A DNA stretch of 64,000 nucleotides, from contig NZ_JACYFS010000001.1 of the NCBI RefSeq assembly GCF_014837145.1, positions 186,001-250,000 on the forward strand, read 5' to 3'. The notes under the pieces were generated by a model. That model searched no databases, was not told the DNA's origin, and worked only from the letters and a program-made list of their open reading frames with translations. The translations under genes were made by a program, and so were the position numbers. Shown one piece after another: positions 20,162 to 28,517 of the stretch (the first letter of the stretch is position 1; every line of letters begins with the position of its first letter). Origin of the DNA: Chryseobacterium caseinilyticum (GTDB lineage Bacteria > Bacteroidota > Bacteroidia > Flavobacteriales > Weeksellaceae).

Positions 20162-20896
20162 TTACGAAAAAACTTTCAGAAACTGCTCTTTAAAACTCCC
20201 CGAAACTTCAATTTCAGTTTGATCAGCCAATGTTGCTGTGCCGCTTTTGTGATAAGATTTCACAAACCCAGTATTGATGATATGCGAACGGTGAACTCTT
20301 ACAAAAGGATTTTCCAGCAAGTCATCGAAGTGTTTCAAAAAACGGCAGACCATTTTCTTCGAGCCGTCGATAAGATATACCTGAGTGAAATTTCCATCTG
20401 CCTGAAGTCTCACGATATCTTCAGTTTTTACCACGTCAAAGCCCTGCAAAGTCGGAAGAATCAACTGTTGTTTTTCAGGTTTTAATTTTAAATTTTCTAA
20501 AAGAATTTTATTCCGGTTGAGTTCTTCTTTATTCTGAATACTTTCTGCCACTTTATTCACAGCTAAAATCAGTTCCTGAATATCGATGGGTTTTAAAATA
20601 TAATAACTCGCAGATTTATTCAAAGCCTGAAGCGAATATTGTGAAAATGCCGTGATGAAAATTGTTTCGTAGGAAAATGCTTTGGTCGCTTCCAACACAT
20701 CAAAAGCGTTCCCAAAAGGCATTTCCACATCCAAAAAAACCAGTTGTGGCTGCATTTCAGCAATTAACGGAACGGCTTCTTTAATATTTTCCGCTTCGCC
20801 CAAAATCTCGATTTGAGGACAGTATTTGGTAAGGTAGTTTCTGAGAACTTCTCTGGCAATTTTTTCGTCGTCTACGATTACGGATTTTATTTTCAT
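20162..20896 (-). CDS. LytTR-family response regulator of the SIMPL/DUF4139 regulon
   Basis: The 244-residue protein has a receiver domain with the acidic pair at residues 9-10 (VDDE), phospho-acceptor Asp56 (VFLDVEMP) and Lys in YILKPIDI, and a LytTR domain from about 145 to 242 (VVKTEDIVRLQ, FVRVHRSHI). It is 43 bases downstream of its kinase in the same operon. LytTR regulators bind paired direct repeats about 21 bp apart. Four such pairs (ACCAAG twice, 21-bp period) lie in the promoters just beyond the kinase, so this protein is the likely activator of the neighbouring genes. That link is inferred. Confidence 0.94.
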   Translation of the reverse strand: MKIKSVIVDDEKIAREVLRNYLTKYCPQIEILGEAENIKEAVPLIAEMQPQLVFLDVEMPFGNAFDVLEATKAFSYETIFITAFSQYSLQALNKSASYYILKPIDIQELILAVNKVAESIQNKEELNRNKILLENLKLKPEKQQLILPTLQGFDVVKTEDIVRLQADGNFTQVYLIDGSKKMVCRFLKHFDDLLENPFVRVHRSHIINTGFVKSYHKSGTATLADQTEIEVSGSFKEQFLKVFS

Positions 20897-20939
20897 GCTG
20901 GAAAATTTAATATTTAAGATTCAATATTTAAAATTAAAA

Positions 20940-22724
20940 TCAGTTGGACAGTTTAAAAGAAATTTCTACAAAAACTCCCTGAGAATCACTTTTATCAGTG
21001 ATTTTACATTCAATATTTTGTTTGTACAAATCATTCAGCAAAGCTATTCTTTCCAAAGTATTTTTCATGCCGCGGCCTTTTCGGGTTTTCTGATGTTCGG
21101 TTTTTTGCTTTTTACTTTCTTCGATCCCGATGCCGTTGTCTTCGATGGTAATTTTCAGATTTTCGGATGATTTTTCAAATTTTAATTTCAAAAATCCTTT
21201 TGTAGTGCGATAACGTAAACCATGCCACACGGCATTTTCAAGAAATGGCTGCACCAACATTCCGGGAACTTTTAAACTTTGCGTATTCAAAGTATCATCC
21301 ACTTCAATTTCATAATCAAACTTATCTGCGAATCGGGTTTTTTCTAAAGCTAAATAGTTTTGGAGCAAATCTAATTCCTGCTGAAACGGAATAAAATCAT
21401 CTGTAGAATTTTCCATTACGCCCCGCATCAGCTTTGAGAATTTGGTTAAATATTGGTTGGCTTCGAGTTCGTTATTTGTCGCAATAAAATGATTTACAGA
21501 GTTTAAGCTGTTGAAAATAAAATGCGGATTCATCTCACGACGCAACGACTGCAAAGCGATTTTTTTGTTTTTAATCTGAACTTTTTTCAAGGTTCTGAAA
21601 ATAAAAATTATTAAACCTATTAAAATTACCAATGCAGCAATGAGGCTGTAGTTGAAAAGGTTTTTCTTCCTGATGAGTTCATCTTTCAGTTTCTTTTCCT
21701 GTTCGAGCTGTGAAATTCTCTGTTCGGTATCCTCAAGAATTTTATTGTCGACCAAACTTCGGTCTTTTGAAACCAAATCTGGTAATTTCCCTAGAAAATC
21801 TCTGTACAGTTGTACGGAAGCATCTGTATTTTCAGAGATAGCATATAAACTGTCGAGTCTTTTCACACTTTTCTGTGCTTCTAAAGTATGACCTTTATTT
21901 AGAGCAATATCGTACGCATTTTTAAGTAAAAAAATTGCTTCCTCCGGATCATTTTTCCTGATGTAAATATCTGCAAGTTCCTGAATCTGTTCAACTTTTT
22001 TCTGAGAATTTTCGTTAACGAAATCTTCCTTCAGAACCTTCTTTTTAACTTCAATCGCCTTGTCAAAATCTTTATTAACAATATATAGATCGGTCAGTTT
22101 TTGGTTGATCGCCAAAGCCTGCTGGGGAGATTCGTCTTTTGAAATTTTGTATGCCGTGGTGAGGTTTTCTTCTGCTTTGGGGATATTTTTGACCTCAAGA
22201 TTAGCCTCAGCCATTTGAGAATATCCGGCCGCAAGATCTTCCTTATTATTTTCCTTCTCGCTGTTTTGGATGTTGTTTTGAATCGCTTCCATCCTTACAA
22301 CCGGTGAGTTGGAATTCAGCCTGGAAGCATCATTGGAATTCTGTATTTTTTTCGCCCTAGAATAACCGACTTTTGAAGCGACCTCATAATTTCTTGCCGC
22401 CGCTGTCAGTTTATTCTGACTTTCCTGAGATTGTGCCAGTTTTCTGGTGACCTTTTCGAGATTCTGTTTGTCATTCAGCTTTTCGTAAATGTTTTTAGAT
22501 TTTAAAAAGTATTCTTCACTTTTAGAAAAATTGGAAGCATTAAAATAAGATTCACCGATTTTAAAATAGGATTCAGCTTCTGCAGATTCATCTTTTTTGT
22601 CGACGGCTTTTCGTAAAATTTTACTTTCGCTGGTGACTTCTTCAACTACTTTATTGCTTTGAGAATACATTTTATTCCCAAGAAAAGTGAAGGCCAGTGC
22701 GAAAAAGAAATAATAGAATTTCAT
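20940..22724 (-). CDS. LytS-type sensor histidine kinase with TPR sensor domain
   Basis: The 594-residue protein starts with a signal peptide (cleavage near MYSQ). An exported TPR array from about 45 to 300 follows, then a coiled coil (about 330-352), one transmembrane helix (about 357-377) and a His_kinase domain with phospho-acceptor His401 (MNPHFIFNSLNSVNHF), N box Asn497 (FLENAVWHGL) and glycine boxes (DNGIGIEESK, KGRGMKNTLERI). Periplasmic TPRs suggest sensing of an envelope protein. The TATCTTTG -7 element ends four bases before the ATG, so the mRNA may be leaderless. Confidence 0.94.
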   Translation of the reverse strand: MKFYYFFFALAFTFLGNKMYSQSNKVVEEVTSESKILRKAVDKKDESAEAESYFKIGESYFNASNFSKSEEYFLKSKNIYEKLNDKQNLEKVTRKLAQSQESQNKLTAAARNYEVASKVGYSRAKKIQNSNDASRLNSNSPVVRMEAIQNNIQNSEKENNKEDLAAGYSQMAEANLEVKNIPKAEENLTTAYKISKDESPQQALAINQKLTDLYIVNKDFDKAIEVKKKVLKEDFVNENSQKKVEQIQELADIYIRKNDPEEAIFLLKNAYDIALNKGHTLEAQKSVKRLDSLYAISENTDASVQLYRDFLGKLPDLVSKDRSLVDNKILEDTEQRISQLEQEKKLKDELIRKKNLFNYSLIAALVILIGLIIFIFRTLKKVQIKNKKIALQSLRREMNPHFIFNSLNSVNHFIATNNELEANQYLTKFSKLMRGVMENSTDDFIPFQQELDLLQNYLALEKTRFADKFDYEIEVDDTLNTQSLKVPGMLVQPFLENAVWHGLRYRTTKGFLKLKFEKSSENLKITIEDNGIGIEESKKQKTEHQKTRKGRGMKNTLERIALLNDLYKQNIECKITDKSDSQGVFVEISFKLSN

Positions 22725-22728
22725 AAAA

Positions 22729-22736
22729 CAAAGATA
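22729..22736 (-). promoter_or_regulatory. Putative -7 element of the TPR-kinase operon, probable leaderless start
   Basis: On the minus strand TATCTTTG is followed by four bases and then the ATG at 22724. The nearest ACCAAG repeat lies 30 bases further upstream, close to the spacing seen at the other sites, but in inverted orientation. Confidence 0.5.
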
Positions 22737-22766
22737 TACATATATTTAGTTCGCCAAAAACGATTC

Positions 22767-22793
22767 ACCAAGCGAAAACCTGTTTTTACCAAG
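22767..22793 (+). promoter_or_regulatory. Predicted LytTR site A (ACCAAG pair, 21-bp period)
   Basis: ACCAAG occurs at 22767-22772 and again at 22788-22793. The period of 21 bp, two helical turns, is that of known LytTR sites such as those of AgrA. The site lies in the divergent region between the kinase and the first SIMPL gene. It shares the 15-base ACCAAGCGAAAACCT with site B. Confidence 0.7.
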
Positions 22794-22985
22794 TTGAAAA
22801 TTTTATGAGCAACAACTTTTAATTAAAAAACAGAATTGTGAATGGTGATTTTGATTGTAGTTTTCGCAAAGATTTTAAAGATCGAGCAGATTAAATATTC
22901 CAAAATTCAGCATTAAGTAAAATGTTTCTGACAATTAATTTTATTTAAACTGAAAATTCTTCTGAGTTGTCTCTTTTTTAATTCT
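22794..22985. other. Divergent intergenic region between LytTR sites A and B
   Basis: This AT-rich stretch separates the two sites in the kinase/SIMPL divergent region. I see no ORF, hairpin terminator or further ACCAAG copy in it. Confidence 0.4.
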
Positions 22986-23012
22986 ACCAAGCGAAAACCT
23001 CAATTGACCAAG
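22986..23012 (+). promoter_or_regulatory. Predicted LytTR site B (ACCAAG pair, 21-bp period)
   Basis: ACCAAG occurs at 22986-22991 and 23007-23012. The second copy ends 29 bases before the TAAGTTTG -7 element of the first SIMPL gene, so a bound regulator would contact polymerase near -35. Confidence 0.75.
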
Positions 23013-23041
23013 TTGGCTTTAAATTGTTTTTGTGGGGCGAT

Positions 23042-23049
23042 TAAGTTTG
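23042..23049 (+). promoter_or_regulatory. -7 element of the first SIMPL gene
   Basis: TAAGTTTG matches TAnnTTTG, 25 bases before the ATG. There is no good TTTG -33 box at standard spacing, which is expected of an activator-dependent promoter. Confidence 0.5.
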
Positions 23050-23074
23050 CATTATAATTTTAAACTTAATCATT

Positions 23075-24022
23075 ATGAAAAACATTTTATGCCTTGCTTC
23101 GGCTGTATTTTTTCAATTCAGTTTTGCACAGGTTTCAGGAAATATTAATTATCAAAATCAGGTACATTATCAGGAAAACAACATGAGCGTCAATGTTCCT
23201 TCAGAGAATAATATAGTTATAAGTATCAAGGGAATGGCAAATGTAAAAGCGGATAAGTATGTTGCAATTTTTAGCCTGACACAGGTAGCAGAAACATCGG
23301 ATGAAGTGAATTCGCTGATGGATAAACGCCTAAAGAACGCATTAGATCTGATCAGTAATAATAAAGGAATTGAAACTTTTGTTGATATGGTTTCTTTTGT
23401 TCCTGTTTATCAGTATGCGGTTGAGAAAAAGATTTTCAGCAGAAAAACGTACAATGAAGTTCCTACAGGTTTTGAACTTAAAAAAAATCTGCACATTAAA
23501 TTCTCAAATCCTTCTCAGCTGAACGAACTCATTACAGTTCTATCAAAAAATGAAATTTATGATCTTGTAAGAGTAGATTATTTTGCAAACAGCCTCGAAA
23601 CCATTAAAAAAGAATTGATGATTAAAGCAAAAATTGCACTTCAGGAAAAAGTAAAAAACTATGAAACTTTACTTGGAGAAACTTTTGCCAACAGTAGAAA
23701 ATCGATTAATGATGGCTTTCAAACCAAACTACCGACAGAAATGTATAAATCCTATGAGGCTTACAACAGTTCTTCCTTAGCCTTGACAAAGCTGGCAAAT
23801 GTAAATCAGACCAATAAATCAACAACCCTGTATTATCAACCGGTTTTAGACAAAGAATTTGATTTTGTTATTAATCCTACAATTATGGAACCCGTTATTC
23901 AGGTAATGTACGAAGTAAAATTAGCAATTACTAAAGAGGAAAAGATTGAAAACAAGAACAGCAAATCTTTTATTCTGATCACGCCAAATGGAGAGATGAG
24001 AGATTTGAATGTTGGAAAGTAA
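23075..24022 (+). CDS. Secreted SIMPL-domain (DUF541) protein 1
   Basis: The 315-residue precursor has a signal peptide ending FSFAQ at about residue 19 and a SIMPL (DUF541) domain from about 45 to 240. The domain starts with the characteristic VISIKGMANVKADKYVAIFSL strand and contains the paired helix EVNSLMDKRLKNALDLI. SIMPL proteins such as YggE are periplasmic, oligomeric and linked to oxidative or membrane stress; no enzymatic activity is known. Site B and an activator-type promoter precede it. It may be paired with the second SIMPL gene at 24744. Confidence 0.88.
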   Translation: MKNILCLASAVFFQFSFAQVSGNINYQNQVHYQENNMSVNVPSENNIVISIKGMANVKADKYVAIFSLTQVAETSDEVNSLMDKRLKNALDLISNNKGIETFVDMVSFVPVYQYAVEKKIFSRKTYNEVPTGFELKKNLHIKFSNPSQLNELITVLSKNEIYDLVRVDYFANSLETIKKELMIKAKIALQEKVKNYETLLGETFANSRKSINDGFQTKLPTEMYKSYEAYNSSSLALTKLANVNQTNKSTTLYYQPVLDKEFDFVINPTIMEPVIQVMYEVKLAITKEEKIENKNSKSFILITPNGEMRDLNVGK

Positions 24023-24058
24023 GTACGTCTAAAATAAATCACCAGCTTCAAAGATATT

Positions 24059-24355
24059 TTATACAGGTCGTTTATATGTGTTTTGCCTTCCATGGAAAAC
24101 ACCTTTCACATAAATAAGTTTTTGCTCTTCATCAATCTGATAGAAAATTACATATGGATATTTTTTGAATGGCAACCCTCTAAAGTCTTTATAATAAATT
24201 TTAAAAAATGGACTGCGCAGGATGGTTTGCAAAGTTAATTCATAATCTTTAACAAAATTCTGAGCAACTTTTAGTGAAGCAACTTTTTTGTAATAGGCAA
24301 CAGCTTCTCTCACATTAAATTTTGCAACAGGAGATATTATTGCTTTATAGCCCAT
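24059..24355 (-). CDS. RelE/ParE-family toxin
   Basis: The 98-residue protein has the RelE/ParE layout: an N-terminal strand (YKAIISPVAKFNVREAVAYY), helices with AQNFVKDYELTLQTILRSP, and a C-terminal sheet with FRGLPFKKYPYVIFYQIDEEQKLIYVKGVFHGRQ. Members cleave ribosome-bound mRNA or poison gyrase; which applies here is not decidable. It overlaps its antitoxin by 11 bases, antitoxin first. The pair is oriented against the surrounding SIMPL genes and has no LytTR site, so it seems to be an insertion. Confidence 0.9.
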   Translation of the reverse strand: MGYKAIISPVAKFNVREAVAYYKKVASLKVAQNFVKDYELTLQTILRSPFFKIYYKDFRGLPFKKYPYVIFYQIDEEQKLIYVKGVFHGRQNTYKRPV

Positions 24356-24563
24356 ATTCCTTTTTTAGTTCATCTAAAAATTCATCACTGTCCTGATATT
24401 CAGATATATCTAAATTGGATTGGCTGTCAAGTATTTTTTTTTGTTCGTCTGACAGTTCAAAAGAATCTTCATTCTCCTTTGTGTATTTCGCACCAATAAG
24501 TTCTAAAAACTCCAGAAAGAAAGAGTTTTTGTCATCTGGTATAGAAACGTTGTAAGTTGTCAT
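24345..24563 (-). CDS. Antitoxin of the RelE/ParE pair
   Basis: I take the ATG at 24563, giving 72 residues from MTTYNVSIPDD; a TTG nine bases upstream is less likely. The protein is small and acidic, with a Phe/Leu-rich N-terminal helix and a C-terminal helix (DSDEFLDELKKEYGL) of the type that wraps a RelE toxin. No ribbon-helix-helix or HTH motif is clear. The antitoxin role rests on its position and 11-base overlap with the toxin. Confidence 0.8.
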   Translation of the reverse strand: MTTYNVSIPDDKNSFFLEFLELIGAKYTKENEDSFELSDEQKKILDSQSNLDISEYQDSDEFLDELKKEYGL

Positions 24564-24652
24564 AATGCACAAATTGAATTATTAGAGTTGAATATAAACA
24601 AAATTAAGAAATAAAATTTAAAACAATTTGAAAGTAAAAGCAGAAGGCGTCT

Positions 24653-24679
24653 ACCAAGCCAAATCCCCATTTCACCAAG
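24653..24679 (+). promoter_or_regulatory. Predicted LytTR site C (ACCAAG pair, 21-bp period)
   Basis: ACCAAG occurs at 24653-24658 and 24674-24679. The second copy ends 28 bases before TAATTTTA (24708-24715), a near -7 element upstream of the second SIMPL gene. Confidence 0.75.
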
Positions 24680-24743
24680 TCTGCAGATTTTCAGTTTTAA
24701 ATTAGCGTAATTTTACTTTAGAAATTTAAAACAACAGGAACAT

Positions 24744-25418
24744 ATGAAACTGAAACACCTTTTATTAGTCGGAATTTTTGCAGCAGGAAGTTTGGTGAAT
24801 GCGCAGGAAATTAAAAAAAATGCAATCGAGGTAACAGGAGTTGCCGAAATGGAAGTGGAACCGGATGAAATCATCTTCAACATCGGAATCAAAGCTGATA
24901 ACAAGAATCAACTGGCTGATAACGAAAAACTTTTGTTTGAAATCCTGAAGAACGATGGAGTAAAAAATGAAGACATCAAATTCAAATCGATGTATCAGAA
25001 TTTATACTCAAAAACCACAAAGTTTACGAAGAGTTTTCAGTTTAAAGTCAATGCGAAAACCAATGTGAGTAAGCTTTTTGAAGATTTGAACCAGAAATGG
25101 GTCAGCAATCTGAATATTGCGGAAATTAAAAACACAAAAATTGCCGATTTCAGAAAAACCGTAAAGATCAATGCATTGAAAGCAGCAAAAGAAAAAGCAG
25201 ACTATCTTTTGGAAAGCATCGGTAAAAAGACCGGAACGCCTTTGGAAATCACTGAAATTGAAGATTACATGAGCGATTCTGTAATGCCCGTTGCTTACCG
25301 AAGCAAAATGGCAAACGTACAGCTGGAAGCAGCCGACCAAAGTCTGGATTATTCTTTTGATAACATCGAAAATATCAAACTCAAATTCAGCATCAAAACA
25401 AGATACGAAATTCTTTAG
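24744..25418 (+). CDS. Secreted SIMPL-domain (DUF541) protein 2, YggE-like
   Basis: The 224-residue precursor has a signal peptide (MKLKHLLLVGIFAAGSLVNAQ) and a full SIMPL domain that starts IEVTGVAEMEVEPDEIIFNI, close to the YggE consensus, with the typical late KTVKINALKAAKEKADYLLE helix. It is probably periplasmic. Site C precedes it and its own terminator follows, so it is an independent unit of the predicted LytTR regulon. The two SIMPL proteins differ strongly in sequence and may form mixed rings. Confidence 0.92.
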   Translation: MKLKHLLLVGIFAAGSLVNAQEIKKNAIEVTGVAEMEVEPDEIIFNIGIKADNKNQLADNEKLLFEILKNDGVKNEDIKFKSMYQNLYSKTTKFTKSFQFKVNAKTNVSKLFEDLNQKWVSNLNIAEIKNTKIADFRKTVKINALKAAKEKADYLLESIGKKTGTPLEITEIEDYMSDSVMPVAYRSKMANVQLEAADQSLDYSFDNIENIKLKFSIKTRYEIL

Positions 25419-25429
25419 TGTGTGAAAAG

Positions 25430-25457
25430 GACGGTCAGAAATGGCTGTCTTTTTTTT
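25430..25457 (+). terminator. Terminator after SIMPL gene 2
   Basis: GACGGTC (25430-25436) pairs with GGCTGTC (25443-25449) using G-U pairs, followed by eight Ts. The next LytTR site begins 15 bases later. Confidence 0.8.
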
Positions 25458-25472
25458 GACGTCAAAACTTTC

Positions 25473-25499
25473 ACCAAGTGAGAATATGGTTTCACCAAG
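25473..25499 (+). promoter_or_regulatory. Predicted LytTR site D (ACCAAG pair, 21-bp period)
   Basis: ACCAAG occurs at 25473-25478 and 25494-25499. The second copy ends 28 bases before TAATTTTA (25528-25535). The sequence from the second repeat to the -7 region is nearly the same as at site C. Confidence 0.78.
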
Positions 25500-25560
25500 T
25501 CTGCTGAAAGTCAGTTTAAATTCAGGGTAATTTTACTGTAGAACTTTAAAATAATAAACA

Positions 25561-27156
25561 ATGCGACACTCCATCTTCTTAGTAATGCTCACGTTTTCTT
25601 TATTTAAATCTCAGGAAATTAAAAAAGAAATTGAAGTGAAACAGGCAACGGTATTTCTGCAGGGTGCCAAAGTTTTTGGAAGCACTAATGTCAGTCTTCA
25701 AAAAGGAAGAAACGTAGTAAAGATCATCAATCTTCCAAACGATCTGGATGAAAATACCTACAAAATCAATCTTGAAAAAAACACAACACTTTTATCCATC
25801 ACTCCACAAAGTAATTATCTGAAAAATGATGAGATGTCTGAAGGCGAAAAAAAACTGGATGATGAAAAGAAAAAATTTCAGAGAGAGGTTAACTTACTGA
25901 ATATTAAAATTAAAAATCTGACGGGCGAACAGAATATCATCAATGACAATCTTAAAGTATCTACCAACGATAAATCGACTCCGCAGGAACAGCTGATCAA
26001 ACTGACGGAATTTTACAGAAAAAGAATGCTGGAAATCGACAATCAGGTTTTTCTTTTGAATGAACAGAAATCTGTTTTGGATGAAAGTATTGCCAAAATC
26101 AATAAGCAGTTTTCTGAGGAGCAGACACACAAAAATCAGAATAAAAAAGAACTGTTGCTTGAAATTCTCGCTGAAAATGAGATGAATCTGAATTTAGGCG
26201 TGAGCTACATTGTTTCCAATGCTGGATGGGTTCCTTCTTATGATTTGCGGGCATTGTCAACCAAGAAACCGCTGGAAATTGTTTACAAAGGAAAAATTTA
26301 TCAGAAAACCGGACAGGACTGGAATAATGTGAAACTTTTTGTTTCGACTTACAGGCCTTCTTACAATCAGAACCGACCGATTTTATCGCCACTTTATGTT
26401 GCAGAATATACTGCTCACAATTATGATGATGCTAAAATGGGGTACATGAAAAAAGCTGAAATGTCAGCTGTTAATTCTTACCAGATGCGTGAGGAAGTTG
26501 CGGCTCCAAGCCAGATTCCTGTGGCAACGGTTTCAGACAGCCAGATGAATGTTTTGTATGAACTGAAATTTAACCAAACCATTGTCAGTCAGGAGAAAGA
26601 GCAGTATGTGATTCTGGATAAAAAAGATGTGGATGCAACCTATAAATATCACACGGTTCCGAAGCTGAACAATCAGGTTTTCCTGATGGCTTTCGTGAAA
26701 GACTGGCAGAATTTAAATCTGATTTCAGGCGAAGGAAACATTTATTTTGAAGATAATTATATCGGAAAAACCAATATCACAAGCAATTATGTGAAAGAAG
26801 AATTCCCAATTTCTTTAGGTGTTGATGAAAGAATTGTAGTAAAACGCATCAAACTTGAAGATAAGACATCACAGAAAACGCTTAACTCAAATAAATGGGA
26901 AACTGAATCTTATCAAATAACGGTGAGAAACAACACCAAAGAAAATATCGAGCTGGAAATTCTGGACCAGCTTCCTTTAAGTGAGAATTCAAAAATTACG
27001 GTCAAATCTTTAGAAATAGGAAACGGAATTCTGGATGACAAAACCGGCAGTATTCTTTGGAACAGAAACATTTCGAGCGGAGCTTCAGATAAAATCAACT
27101 TCTCTTACGAAGTAAAATATCCAAAAGAAATGCAGATTCAGTATTACAGTCGATAA
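25561..27156 (+). CDS. DUF4139/MuiA-family surface protein
   Basis: The 531-residue precursor has a short signal peptide (to about residue 17), an N-terminal DUF4140-type segment (KQATVFLQGAKVFGSTNVSL), a coiled coil (about 95-205) and a C-terminal DUF4139 domain from about 215 (LGVSYIVSNAGWVPSYDLRA) ending in SYEVKYPKEMQIQYY. The family is annotated as mucoidy inhibitor A from one early report; the biochemical role is unknown. Site D lies just upstream. The VWA gene follows in the same direction without a LytTR site, so it may be co-transcribed. Confidence 0.9.
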   Translation: MRHSIFLVMLTFSLFKSQEIKKEIEVKQATVFLQGAKVFGSTNVSLQKGRNVVKIINLPNDLDENTYKINLEKNTTLLSITPQSNYLKNDEMSEGEKKLDDEKKKFQREVNLLNIKIKNLTGEQNIINDNLKVSTNDKSTPQEQLIKLTEFYRKRMLEIDNQVFLLNEQKSVLDESIAKINKQFSEEQTHKNQNKKELLLEILAENEMNLNLGVSYIVSNAGWVPSYDLRALSTKKPLEIVYKGKIYQKTGQDWNNVKLFVSTYRPSYNQNRPILSPLYVAEYTAHNYDDAKMGYMKKAEMSAVNSYQMREEVAAPSQIPVATVSDSQMNVLYELKFNQTIVSQEKEQYVILDKKDVDATYKYHTVPKLNNQVFLMAFVKDWQNLNLISGEGNIYFEDNYIGKTNITSNYVKEEFPISLGVDERIVVKRIKLEDKTSQKTLNSNKWETESYQITVRNNTKENIELEILDQLPLSENSKITVKSLEIGNGILDDKTGSILWNRNISSGASDKINFSYEVKYPKEMQIQYYSR

Positions 27157-27323: not shown

Positions 27324-28517
27324 ATGAACACTTTAAAATTTTTAGCATTAACAACCGGTGCAGTTGCTTTTTTAAGCGCAGGAAAATTATCAGACATCCG
27401 TTGCAGCAGCAAAGCCAACGATAGAGAAGTGGTGGAAAGTCATATTTCTCCAGAACCGCAGATTACCGTTTCAAAAGACAATAAAATTCAGGTTGCACTG
27501 CTTTTGGACACGTCAAACAGTATGGATGGACTTATTGATCAGGCAAAATCCAGACTTTGGAATATTGTGAATACGCTGACCACTTTGAAGTACAACGGAA
27601 AGGCGCCGCAAGTAGAAATTGCCCTTTATGAATACGGAAATGACGGTTTGCAGGATGAAAATTATATAAGACAGGTTACACCGCTCACTCAGGATCTGGA
27701 TTTGGTTTCAGAAAAACTGTTTGCTTTGAGAACCAACGGTGGAAATGAATATTGTGGTGCAGTCATTCGTGATGCCGCAAGCAATCTGAGTTGGGACGGA
27801 AATGAGAAAAGTATGAAGCTGATTTATATTGCCGGAAACGAACCTTTTGATCAGGGAAAAATTAATTATAAAGAAACCATTTCAGGCGCAAAGAAAAAAA
27901 ATATTTATACGAACACCATTTTCTGCGGAAGCCGTGATGAGGGAATTCAGACATTCTGGCAAAACGGAGCGAGTCTTGGCGACGGAAAGTTTTTTAACAT
28001 CGACAGCGACCAAAAAGTGATTTACATTGAAACTCCTTACGATGTGAAAATTGCTCAGTACAATTCGCAGTTAAATGACACCTACATTTCTTACGGGCGG
28101 AGAGGGAGTGAGATGAAAATGAAACAGTCCACTCAGGATTCCAACGCAGAAATGCAGTCGGCATCAAATGCTGTTGAACGGGCCGTAAGTAAGTCGAAGA
28201 AAAATGCCTACAAAAATGATCACTGGGATCTGGTGGATAAAGTTGAAAAAGACAAAAGCTACATCTCATCCATCAGAGAAGAAGAATTACCTTCTGAACT
28301 GAAAGGAAAAAGCAAAGCGGAAATCAATAAAATTGTTGCTCAGAAATCTGCAGACCGTGATAAAATTCAGAAAGAAATTGAAGTTTTAGCCAAGCAAAGA
28401 CAAAGCTTTATCGATTCTGAAATGAAAAAACGCGGAAATGCTGAAGGCGATGATTTGGGAAAGGCGATTGAAAAATCGATAGTTGAATTGGCGAAGAAAA
28501 ATGGGTATAGTTTTTAA
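27324..28517 (+). CDS. VWA-domain protein with C-terminal coiled coil
   Basis: The 397-residue product starts with a hydrophobic segment that is probably an export signal. The VWA domain spans about 55-245 and has an intact MIDAS (Asp62, Ser64, Ser66 in DTSNSMDG) and a LRTNGGNEYCGAVI stretch typical of a periplasmic VWA subfamily. The C-terminal third is Lys/Glu-rich coiled coil (about 260-397). VWA domains bind proteins through a divalent metal. It probably acts with the DUF4139 protein encoded 167 bases upstream. Confidence 0.9.
   Translation: MNTLKFLALTTGAVAFLSAGKLSDIRCSSKANDREVVESHISPEPQITVSKDNKIQVALLLDTSNSMDGLIDQAKSRLWNIVNTLTTLKYNGKAPQVEIALYEYGNDGLQDENYIRQVTPLTQDLDLVSEKLFALRTNGGNEYCGAVIRDAASNLSWDGNEKSMKLIYIAGNEPFDQGKINYKETISGAKKKNIYTNTIFCGSRDEGIQTFWQNGASLGDGKFFNIDSDQKVIYIETPYDVKIAQYNSQLNDTYISYGRRGSEMKMKQSTQDSNAEMQSASNAVERAVSKSKKNAYKNDHWDLVDKVEKDKSYISSIREEELPSELKGKSKAEINKIVAQKSADRDKIQKEIEVLAKQRQSFIDSEMKKRGNAEGDDLGKAIEKSIVELAKKNGYSF

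Follow-up and report, generated by a model that had tools for sequence, protein, structure and literature searches.

What controls the SIMPL and DUF4139 genes that stand beside a LytTR two-component pair in the window, the whole stretch of 64,000 nucleotides analyzed here? Proteins of both families are widespread and without clear function, and Pfam describes SIMPL and DUF4139 as families of unknown function. The original prediction was that pairs of ACCAAG, 21 bp apart at each of four intergenic sites, place these genes under the neighboring LytTR regulator. We conclude that the locus is a new regulon of a known two-component type. Comparison of sequences makes it very probable that the exported-TPR kinase and the LytTR regulator activate their own operon together with SIMPL, DUF4139 (MuiA), VWA, and other exported proteins.

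Pfam confirmed the identities that had been assigned to the regulator and kinase adjoining the sites (Response_reg and LytTR; TPR and His_kinase) and to the three putative effector genes (SIMPL, SIMPL, and DUF4140 with DUF4139; Table 1). The regulator scores 61.3 bits for PF00072 and 40.8 bits for PF04397, both exceeding the cut-off, and its putative phospho-acceptor is Asp56, judged by position within LDVEMP. The kinase shows a signal-peptide-like N-terminus, TPR repeats, a single hydrophobic segment near residue 355, an H-box (PHFIFN, including His401), and a HATPase domain; it scores 77.3 bits for PF06580 (LytS-type His_kinase) and 25.5 bits for HATPase_c, slightly below the cut-off of 26.4. 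The signal peptide and membrane segment were read by eye, and on this reading the TPR part would lie outside the inner membrane. On the minus strand the regulator gene comes after the kinase gene; we refer to the two as the kinase–regulator operon. SIMPL1 and SIMPL2 are both above the PF04402 cut-off of 25.2, and signal-peptide-like N-termini are seen by eye in these two and in the window proteins generally. SIMPL2 also matches the NCBIfam oxidative stress defense model PRK11087, which we take to be YggE, at 22.3 bits, far below the cut-off of 249. The DUF4140–DUF4139 protein scores 249.3 bits against TIGR02231 (cut-off 112.6). The product of the gene at 27324 falls below the PF13519 cut-off (21.5 bits versus 27) and is labeled VWA-like only for that reason.

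Table 1. Genes, direct-repeat sites, and -7 elements at the locus, in window coordinates.
Feature	Position	Strand	Basis or remark
LytTR response regulator, 244 aa	20162..20896	-	Pfam Response_reg and LytTR above cut-off
Sensor histidine kinase, 594 aa	20940..22724	-	Pfam TPR_12 and His_kinase above cut-off
Kinase-side -7-like element TATCTTTG	22729..22736	-	30 bp from site A, opposite strand
Site A, direct repeat, facing kinase–regulator operon	22767-22793	+	exact ACCAAG-N15-ACCAAG match
Site B, direct repeat ahead of SIMPL1, 62 bp to start codon	22986-23012	+	exact match
-7 element TAAGTTTG for SIMPL1	23042..23049	+	29 bp past site B
SIMPL protein 1 (SIMPL1), 315 aa	23075..24022	+	Pfam SIMPL PF04402, E 1.2e-8, 36.0 bits
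Site C, direct repeat ahead of SIMPL2, 64 bp to start codon	24653-24679	+	exact match
-7 element TAATTTTA	24708..24715	+	28 bp past site C
SIMPL protein 2 (SIMPL2), 224 aa	24744..25418	+	Pfam SIMPL PF04402, E 3.4e-20, 73.6 bits
Site D, direct repeat ahead of DUF4139 gene, 61 bp to start codon	25473-25499	+	exact match
-7 element TAATTTTA	25528..25535	+	28 bp past site D
DUF4140–DUF4139 protein, mucoidy inhibitor MuiA family, 531 aa	25561..27156	+	Pfam; NCBIfam TIGR02231
VWA-like protein, 397 aa	27324..28517	+	weak VWA_2 match, below cut-off

Between SIMPL1 and SIMPL2 (24059–24572, minus strand) lie a ParE-like toxin gene and a small upstream frame (75 aa), likely a toxin–antitoxin pair; a 72-aa part of the small frame had no Pfam match. 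A near relative (L070) has about 100 bp at this gap, so the segment is probably a recent insertion; in the window it left site C and its promoter intact. Three same-genus loci (L074, L072, and L095) encode an extra protein of about 240 aa, mutually similar by eye, between the LytTR and kinase genes.

All four repeats of the original prediction are exact and correctly placed (Table 1), and three of them (B, C, and D) have a -7 element at the predicted distance of 28–29 bp. The Bacteroidota promoter consensus is TAnnTTTG at -7 and TTG at -33. The placement of the sites ahead of the kinase, both SIMPL genes, and the DUF4139 gene also stood, with one refinement: site A, which has no effector-side (plus-strand) -7 element, is better assigned to the kinase operon than to SIMPL1. 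With one mismatch allowed, the window holds 4 matches, compared with a mean of 0.18 and a maximum of 2 in 100 dinucleotide shuffles. The whole 4.3-Mb genome contains 5 exact matches (1 + 1 for a control pattern), of which the fifth, at G000:C12:522602 (L005), falls inside an open frame and was excluded as a site. With two mismatches there were 119 + 97 matches versus 191 + 183 for the control pattern; degenerate copies are thus not enriched genome-wide, and the sites are local to the kinase–SIMPL–DUF4139 locus. We also excluded an exact form that recurs in several genomes (like ACCAAGYGAAATTTC..GG.AAACCAAG), which in the one case checked (L049) is coding within one open frame. The second DUF4139 gene of the same genome (G000:C19:237539-238471, L228) has no relaxed site within 6 kb.

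We examined the form of the motif in 56 loci, 52 from the same genus (the window included) and 4 from other genera. For spacings from 8 to 60 bp, the site strand has 124 ACCAAG pairs with a period of 21 bp, one with 9 bp, and one with 42 bp, and none was found on the opposite strand of these loci. Conservation extends beyond ACCAAG to a unit of about TTCACCAAGTSAAA-N7-TTCACCAAGTCT, the consensus of 108 exact sites, and the second repeat in Flavobacterium-type loci is often ACCCAT or ACCATT. Under a relaxed rule the site strand of the 56 loci holds 140 sites and the opposite strand 10, with at least one site in 55 of 56, and 80 named loci of relatives hold 111 and 1, respectively. For counts in whole genomes we used a strict motif, ACCAAGYSRAA-N7-TTBACC, outside which site D of the window falls (GAG for RAA). 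Both the strict motif and the relaxed rule were derived from loci that are also counted with them; the genome-wide counts, the later-fetched Flavobacterium loci, and the controls are the more independent parts. LytTR operators are described in the available part of PMC4847170 as two repeats of 9–11 nt with a spacer of 11–13 nt and no common consensus sequence, and the TTCACCAAGT-like repeats at a 21-bp period have this form.

Are the repeats kept in orthologous promoters? They are. A LytTR orthologue at least 89% identical is present in 36 of 36 same-genus genomes (the window's included), which are close relatives, and each of these loci holds at least one site with at most one mismatch in the same orientation (in G021, a one-mismatch site only). 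An even draw of 148 genomes of the family gave 19 with the orthologue, 14 of them among the 20 same-genus genomes and 5 from outside the genus. We compared the loci of 35 other same-genus genomes, then of 10 same-genus and 5 other-genus genomes, and then of 5 same-genus genomes and G128. Among the five other-genus carriers, sites were found at L120, L121 (one mismatch), and L123, and two depart from the pattern: L124 lacks a site in the neighborhood of the kinase, and in G061 the kinase locus (L122) is without one even by the relaxed rule, while a site is present ahead of DUF4139 on another contig (L147). Four loci of remote LytTR relatives (L106–L109, 38–48% identical; G058, G016:C1, G041, and G047) have no site at one mismatch or fewer and were left out of the motif counts.

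In Flavobacterium (g3), a scan with a query from G308, six candidates scored per genome, and a threshold of E 1e-100 gave an orthologue about 70% identical in 82 of 398 genomes. The named relatives are the best 80 of 573 and comprise 77 Flavobacterium or Flavobacteriales records and 3 Bacteroidales records (from Prevotella sp. 10(H), Bacteroides sp. 519, and Dysgonomonas UBA7710). A relaxed site lies near the regulator in 78 of these 80, nearly all Flavobacterium; in the other two, L194 and L225, the corresponding position holds a weaker site. Sites are retained with Flavobacterium regulators 64–71% identical to that of the window. The three Bacteroidales loci (L225, L226, and L227) encode regulators 80–81% identical to the Flavobacterium query, possibly acquired by horizontal transfer, and have degenerate sites (ACCAAT...).

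The distance from site to promoter is conserved as well. On the effector side, 105 of the 129 genus-type sites in 56 loci are followed by TAnnTTT[AG] at 28 or 29 bp, and all 98 Flavobacterium-type sites have it at 28 bp (203 of 227 pooled at 28–29 bp); the 24 genus-type sites without this element are mostly kinase-facing. On the kinase side, the distance between the site and T[AT]nnTTT[AG] is 30 or 31 bp in all 52 same-genus loci and in 75 of 79 loci of the Flavobacterium type (127 of 131 together). The four misses are L194 and L202 (32 bp), L212 (31 bp, one letter off by eye), and L153 (a spurious choice of site); the eightieth Flavobacterium-type locus (L184) had no site in the range searched. 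Six loci, the window among them, have two separate sites, and in these the kinase-proximal site keeps the 30–31 bp and lacks an effector-side -7 element, so it probably serves the kinase operon. A TTG at -33 was found in 9 of 113 genus-type promoters (shuffle fraction 0.265) and 2 of 107 Flavobacterium-type promoters (0.185), that is, more rarely than in shuffles. An upstream site at a fixed distance and a scarcity of -33 TTG are as expected for activator-dependent promoters.

To count regulon members, we took the first gene past each site with a -7 element at 28–29 bp and assigned it by its best match to the window proteins. The 113 genus-type promoters precede SIMPL2 (50), DUF4139 (23), SIMPL1 (15), VWA (13), and other genes (12), and the 107 Flavobacterium-type promoters precede VWA (60), SIMPL1 (27), SIMPL2 (2), and other genes (12), with no open frame in reach in 6. 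The 24 other genes encode squalene-cyclase-like proteins (8), a VWA protein (6), a 191-aa protein (5), rhodanese (4), and a YkuD_2 L,D-transpeptidase-like protein (1). These five groups were named from a scan of one member each, which for the 191-aa protein gave no convincing family. The VWA-like gene at 27324 is probably the last member of the regulon in the window; it lacks its own site here, but in many relatives its homologue stands immediately behind one. A rhodanese-like protein is encoded behind a site in one same-genus locus (L115, 7677–8261) and in three Flavobacterium loci (L216, L219, and L220). Occurring thus in both genera, it suggests that members of the regulon are exchanged. 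A frame of about 584 aa past the kinase-proximal site in five loci (an amidohydrolase in the one scanned) was excluded, as these sites have no effector-side -7 element.

The co-occurrence of the repeat with the LytTR gene depended on the pattern used. Bare ACCAAG-N15-ACCAAG is unspecific, occurring in 91 of 148 family genomes versus 19 of 148 for the regulator; it is common by chance, and we therefore used the stricter motif, for which the co-occurrence did emerge. Across 296 genomes of the order, a set that includes every genome listed in the LytTR search of the same draw size, the strict motif is present in 36, and 34 of these are among the 36 with the LytTR gene (both 34, LytTR only 2, motif only 2, neither 258). 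The Fisher p of 8e-40 ignores shared ancestry and so overstates independence. The two genomes with LytTR and no strict motif are G058 (a 49% relative) and G092 (a variant site), and the two with the motif and no LytTR gene are G128, where the contig ends inside the kinase gene, and G290. The match is complete in the 25 Flavobacterium (g3) genomes drawn, of which 11 have both and 14 have neither. The strict motif gave 70 matches; 66 share a contig with the LytTR gene and are no more than about 7 kb from it, and 2 are in G128 next to the cut-off kinase gene. The off-locus matches are one in G290, where no orthologue was found, and one at G014:C4:2491.

Absences and controls point the same way. 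Five same-genus genomes (G100, G154, G168, G180, and G200) have no orthologue with all candidates scored, no motif, and no SIMPL2, and three of them hold LytTR relatives of 36–38% identity. In searching for orthologues we scored no more than 18, 9, and 6 candidates per genome; six absences were rechecked with fuller scoring, and the others are provisional. Of 32 places with DUF4139, 18 served as controls, 8 belong to the LytTR locus or follow a site, and G088, G114, G127 (twice), and G158 (twice) were left out. None of the 18 controls, which lie away from the LytTR gene in carriers and non-carriers, has a good site; two have a weak one (L229 and L239).

In spacing, conservation, co-occurrence, and agreement with the published operator form, the comparative tests accord with the original prediction that the repeats are LytTR-type sites. 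Genes, regulator, and sites move mostly as one block, so the co-occurrence could reflect block inheritance rather than regulation by the LytTR protein. A different transcription factor might then act on the repeat with the LytTR pair as a passenger, and co-occurrence alone cannot separate neighbors of this kind. We consider this quite improbable, however, because the kinase–regulator promoter has its own copy of the site, with the 30–31 bp kept even in the six loci with a separate effector site, because the DUF4139 site of one carrier sits on another contig (L147), and because the repeats fit LytTR operators as given in the accessible text of PMC4847170. That the repeats are recent duplications or chance, and functionless, is scarcely credible: sites A and B of the window do resemble a duplicated stretch by eye, but spacing, orientation, and -7 distance are kept down to 64–71% regulator identity, and the toxin–antitoxin-like insertion spared site C with its promoter.

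An alternative concerns the direction of control. The regulator could bind the sites and repress, or activate the effectors while repressing its own operon, a reading that finds some footing in the flipped position of the site on the kinase side and in the existence of LytTR repressors such as CoxC, whose operator overlaps the -35 box in the portion of PMC11347149 available. Here, however, the sites stop short of the promoter core on its upstream side, at a constant distance, and a -33 TTG is rarer than in shuffles; we regard repression as unlikely and favor activation.

In the mechanism we propose, the membrane kinase with its exported TPR sensor domain would phosphorylate the LytTR regulator at Asp56, and the regulator would bind the 21-bp-period direct repeat. 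Once bound, it would activate weak promoters 28–29 bp downstream, which have a -7 element and mostly no -33 TTG, switching on exported products: two SIMPL proteins, a DUF4139 protein of the MuiA type, and probably also the VWA protein. A site of this type, the other flank of which faces the kinase promoter at 30–31 bp, would make the kinase–regulator operon answer to its own product. Family knowledge and geometry suggest the phosphotransfer, the binding to the repeat, and the activation of both divergent promoters, and we infer that the regulator binds, that it activates rather than represses, that the feedback is positive, and that the products are exported. An envelope-stress role of the regulon is a guess prompted by gene products that look exported.

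Known systems resemble this one in part. In AgrC/AgrA of Staphylococcus aureus, repeats are likewise placed upstream of promoters, P2 and P3, in the part of PMC4227749 consulted. The Agr system differs in sensor, sequence, and targets, and P2 and P3 each have their own repeats, whereas here one site may lie between the two divergent promoters. AgrA was not among the best 60 PDB matches listed for the regulator, which are mostly receiver-domain matches. YpdA/YpdB of E. coli shares a LytS-type kinase, a LytTR regulator, and a direct-repeat operator (GGCATTTCAT, per the same available part of PMC4847170). For BtsS/BtsR, also of E. coli, the likeness is that BtsR is the regulator's best NCBIfam match, at 99.9 bits and far below the cut-off of 246. 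In both E. coli systems the repeat sequence and targets differ from those here, and the YpdA and BtsS sensors are not known to be TPR proteins. The effectors match the SIMPL (DUF541) and MuiA/DUF4139 families above cut-off. The prediction that LytTR control of SIMPL is undescribed held in our literature search, which covered few subscription journals and found no link of LytTR to SIMPL or to DUF4139; within the literature searched, descriptions of LytTR operators from Bacteroidota seem scarce.

In F. johnsoniae coevolved with Burkholderia thailandensis, the LytTR gene FJOH_RS09515 or the next-tagged kinase FJOH_RS09520 was mutated in 5 of 5 lines, according to the part of PMC10197871 at hand. 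A literature search by locus tag found no paper beyond that one, and F. johnsoniae is absent from the named loci kept (best 80 of 573). Orthology of FJOH_RS09515 has no support at present: in 12 Flavobacterium genomes the distance between gldL and the LytTR gene exceeds 0.6 Mb (one counted across the chromosome start), and in F. johnsoniae gldKLMN presumably lie near the locus tags around FJOH_RS09515.

What stands out in this regulon is the two-way operator and how widely it is conserved. Tentatively, and with rather less confidence than in the regulon itself, we suggest that the LytTR operator, at 28–29 bp to the effector and 30–31 bp to its own kinase promoter, may be an old self-amplifying two-way switch of Flavobacteria, weaker in the three Bacteroidales records, that drives exchangeable exported SIMPL, MuiA, VWA, and rhodanese proteins (at one locus an L,D-transpeptidase-like protein), with SIMPL and MuiA as outputs of one cell-envelope repair program. 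The motif is so specific that a search with it suffices to locate the regulon, with 68 of 70 matches in 296 genomes at the regulon locus. For SIMPL and DUF4139, a candidate regulator, kinase, and DNA site would offer a direct route to the inducing signal and to the job that these proteins may share.
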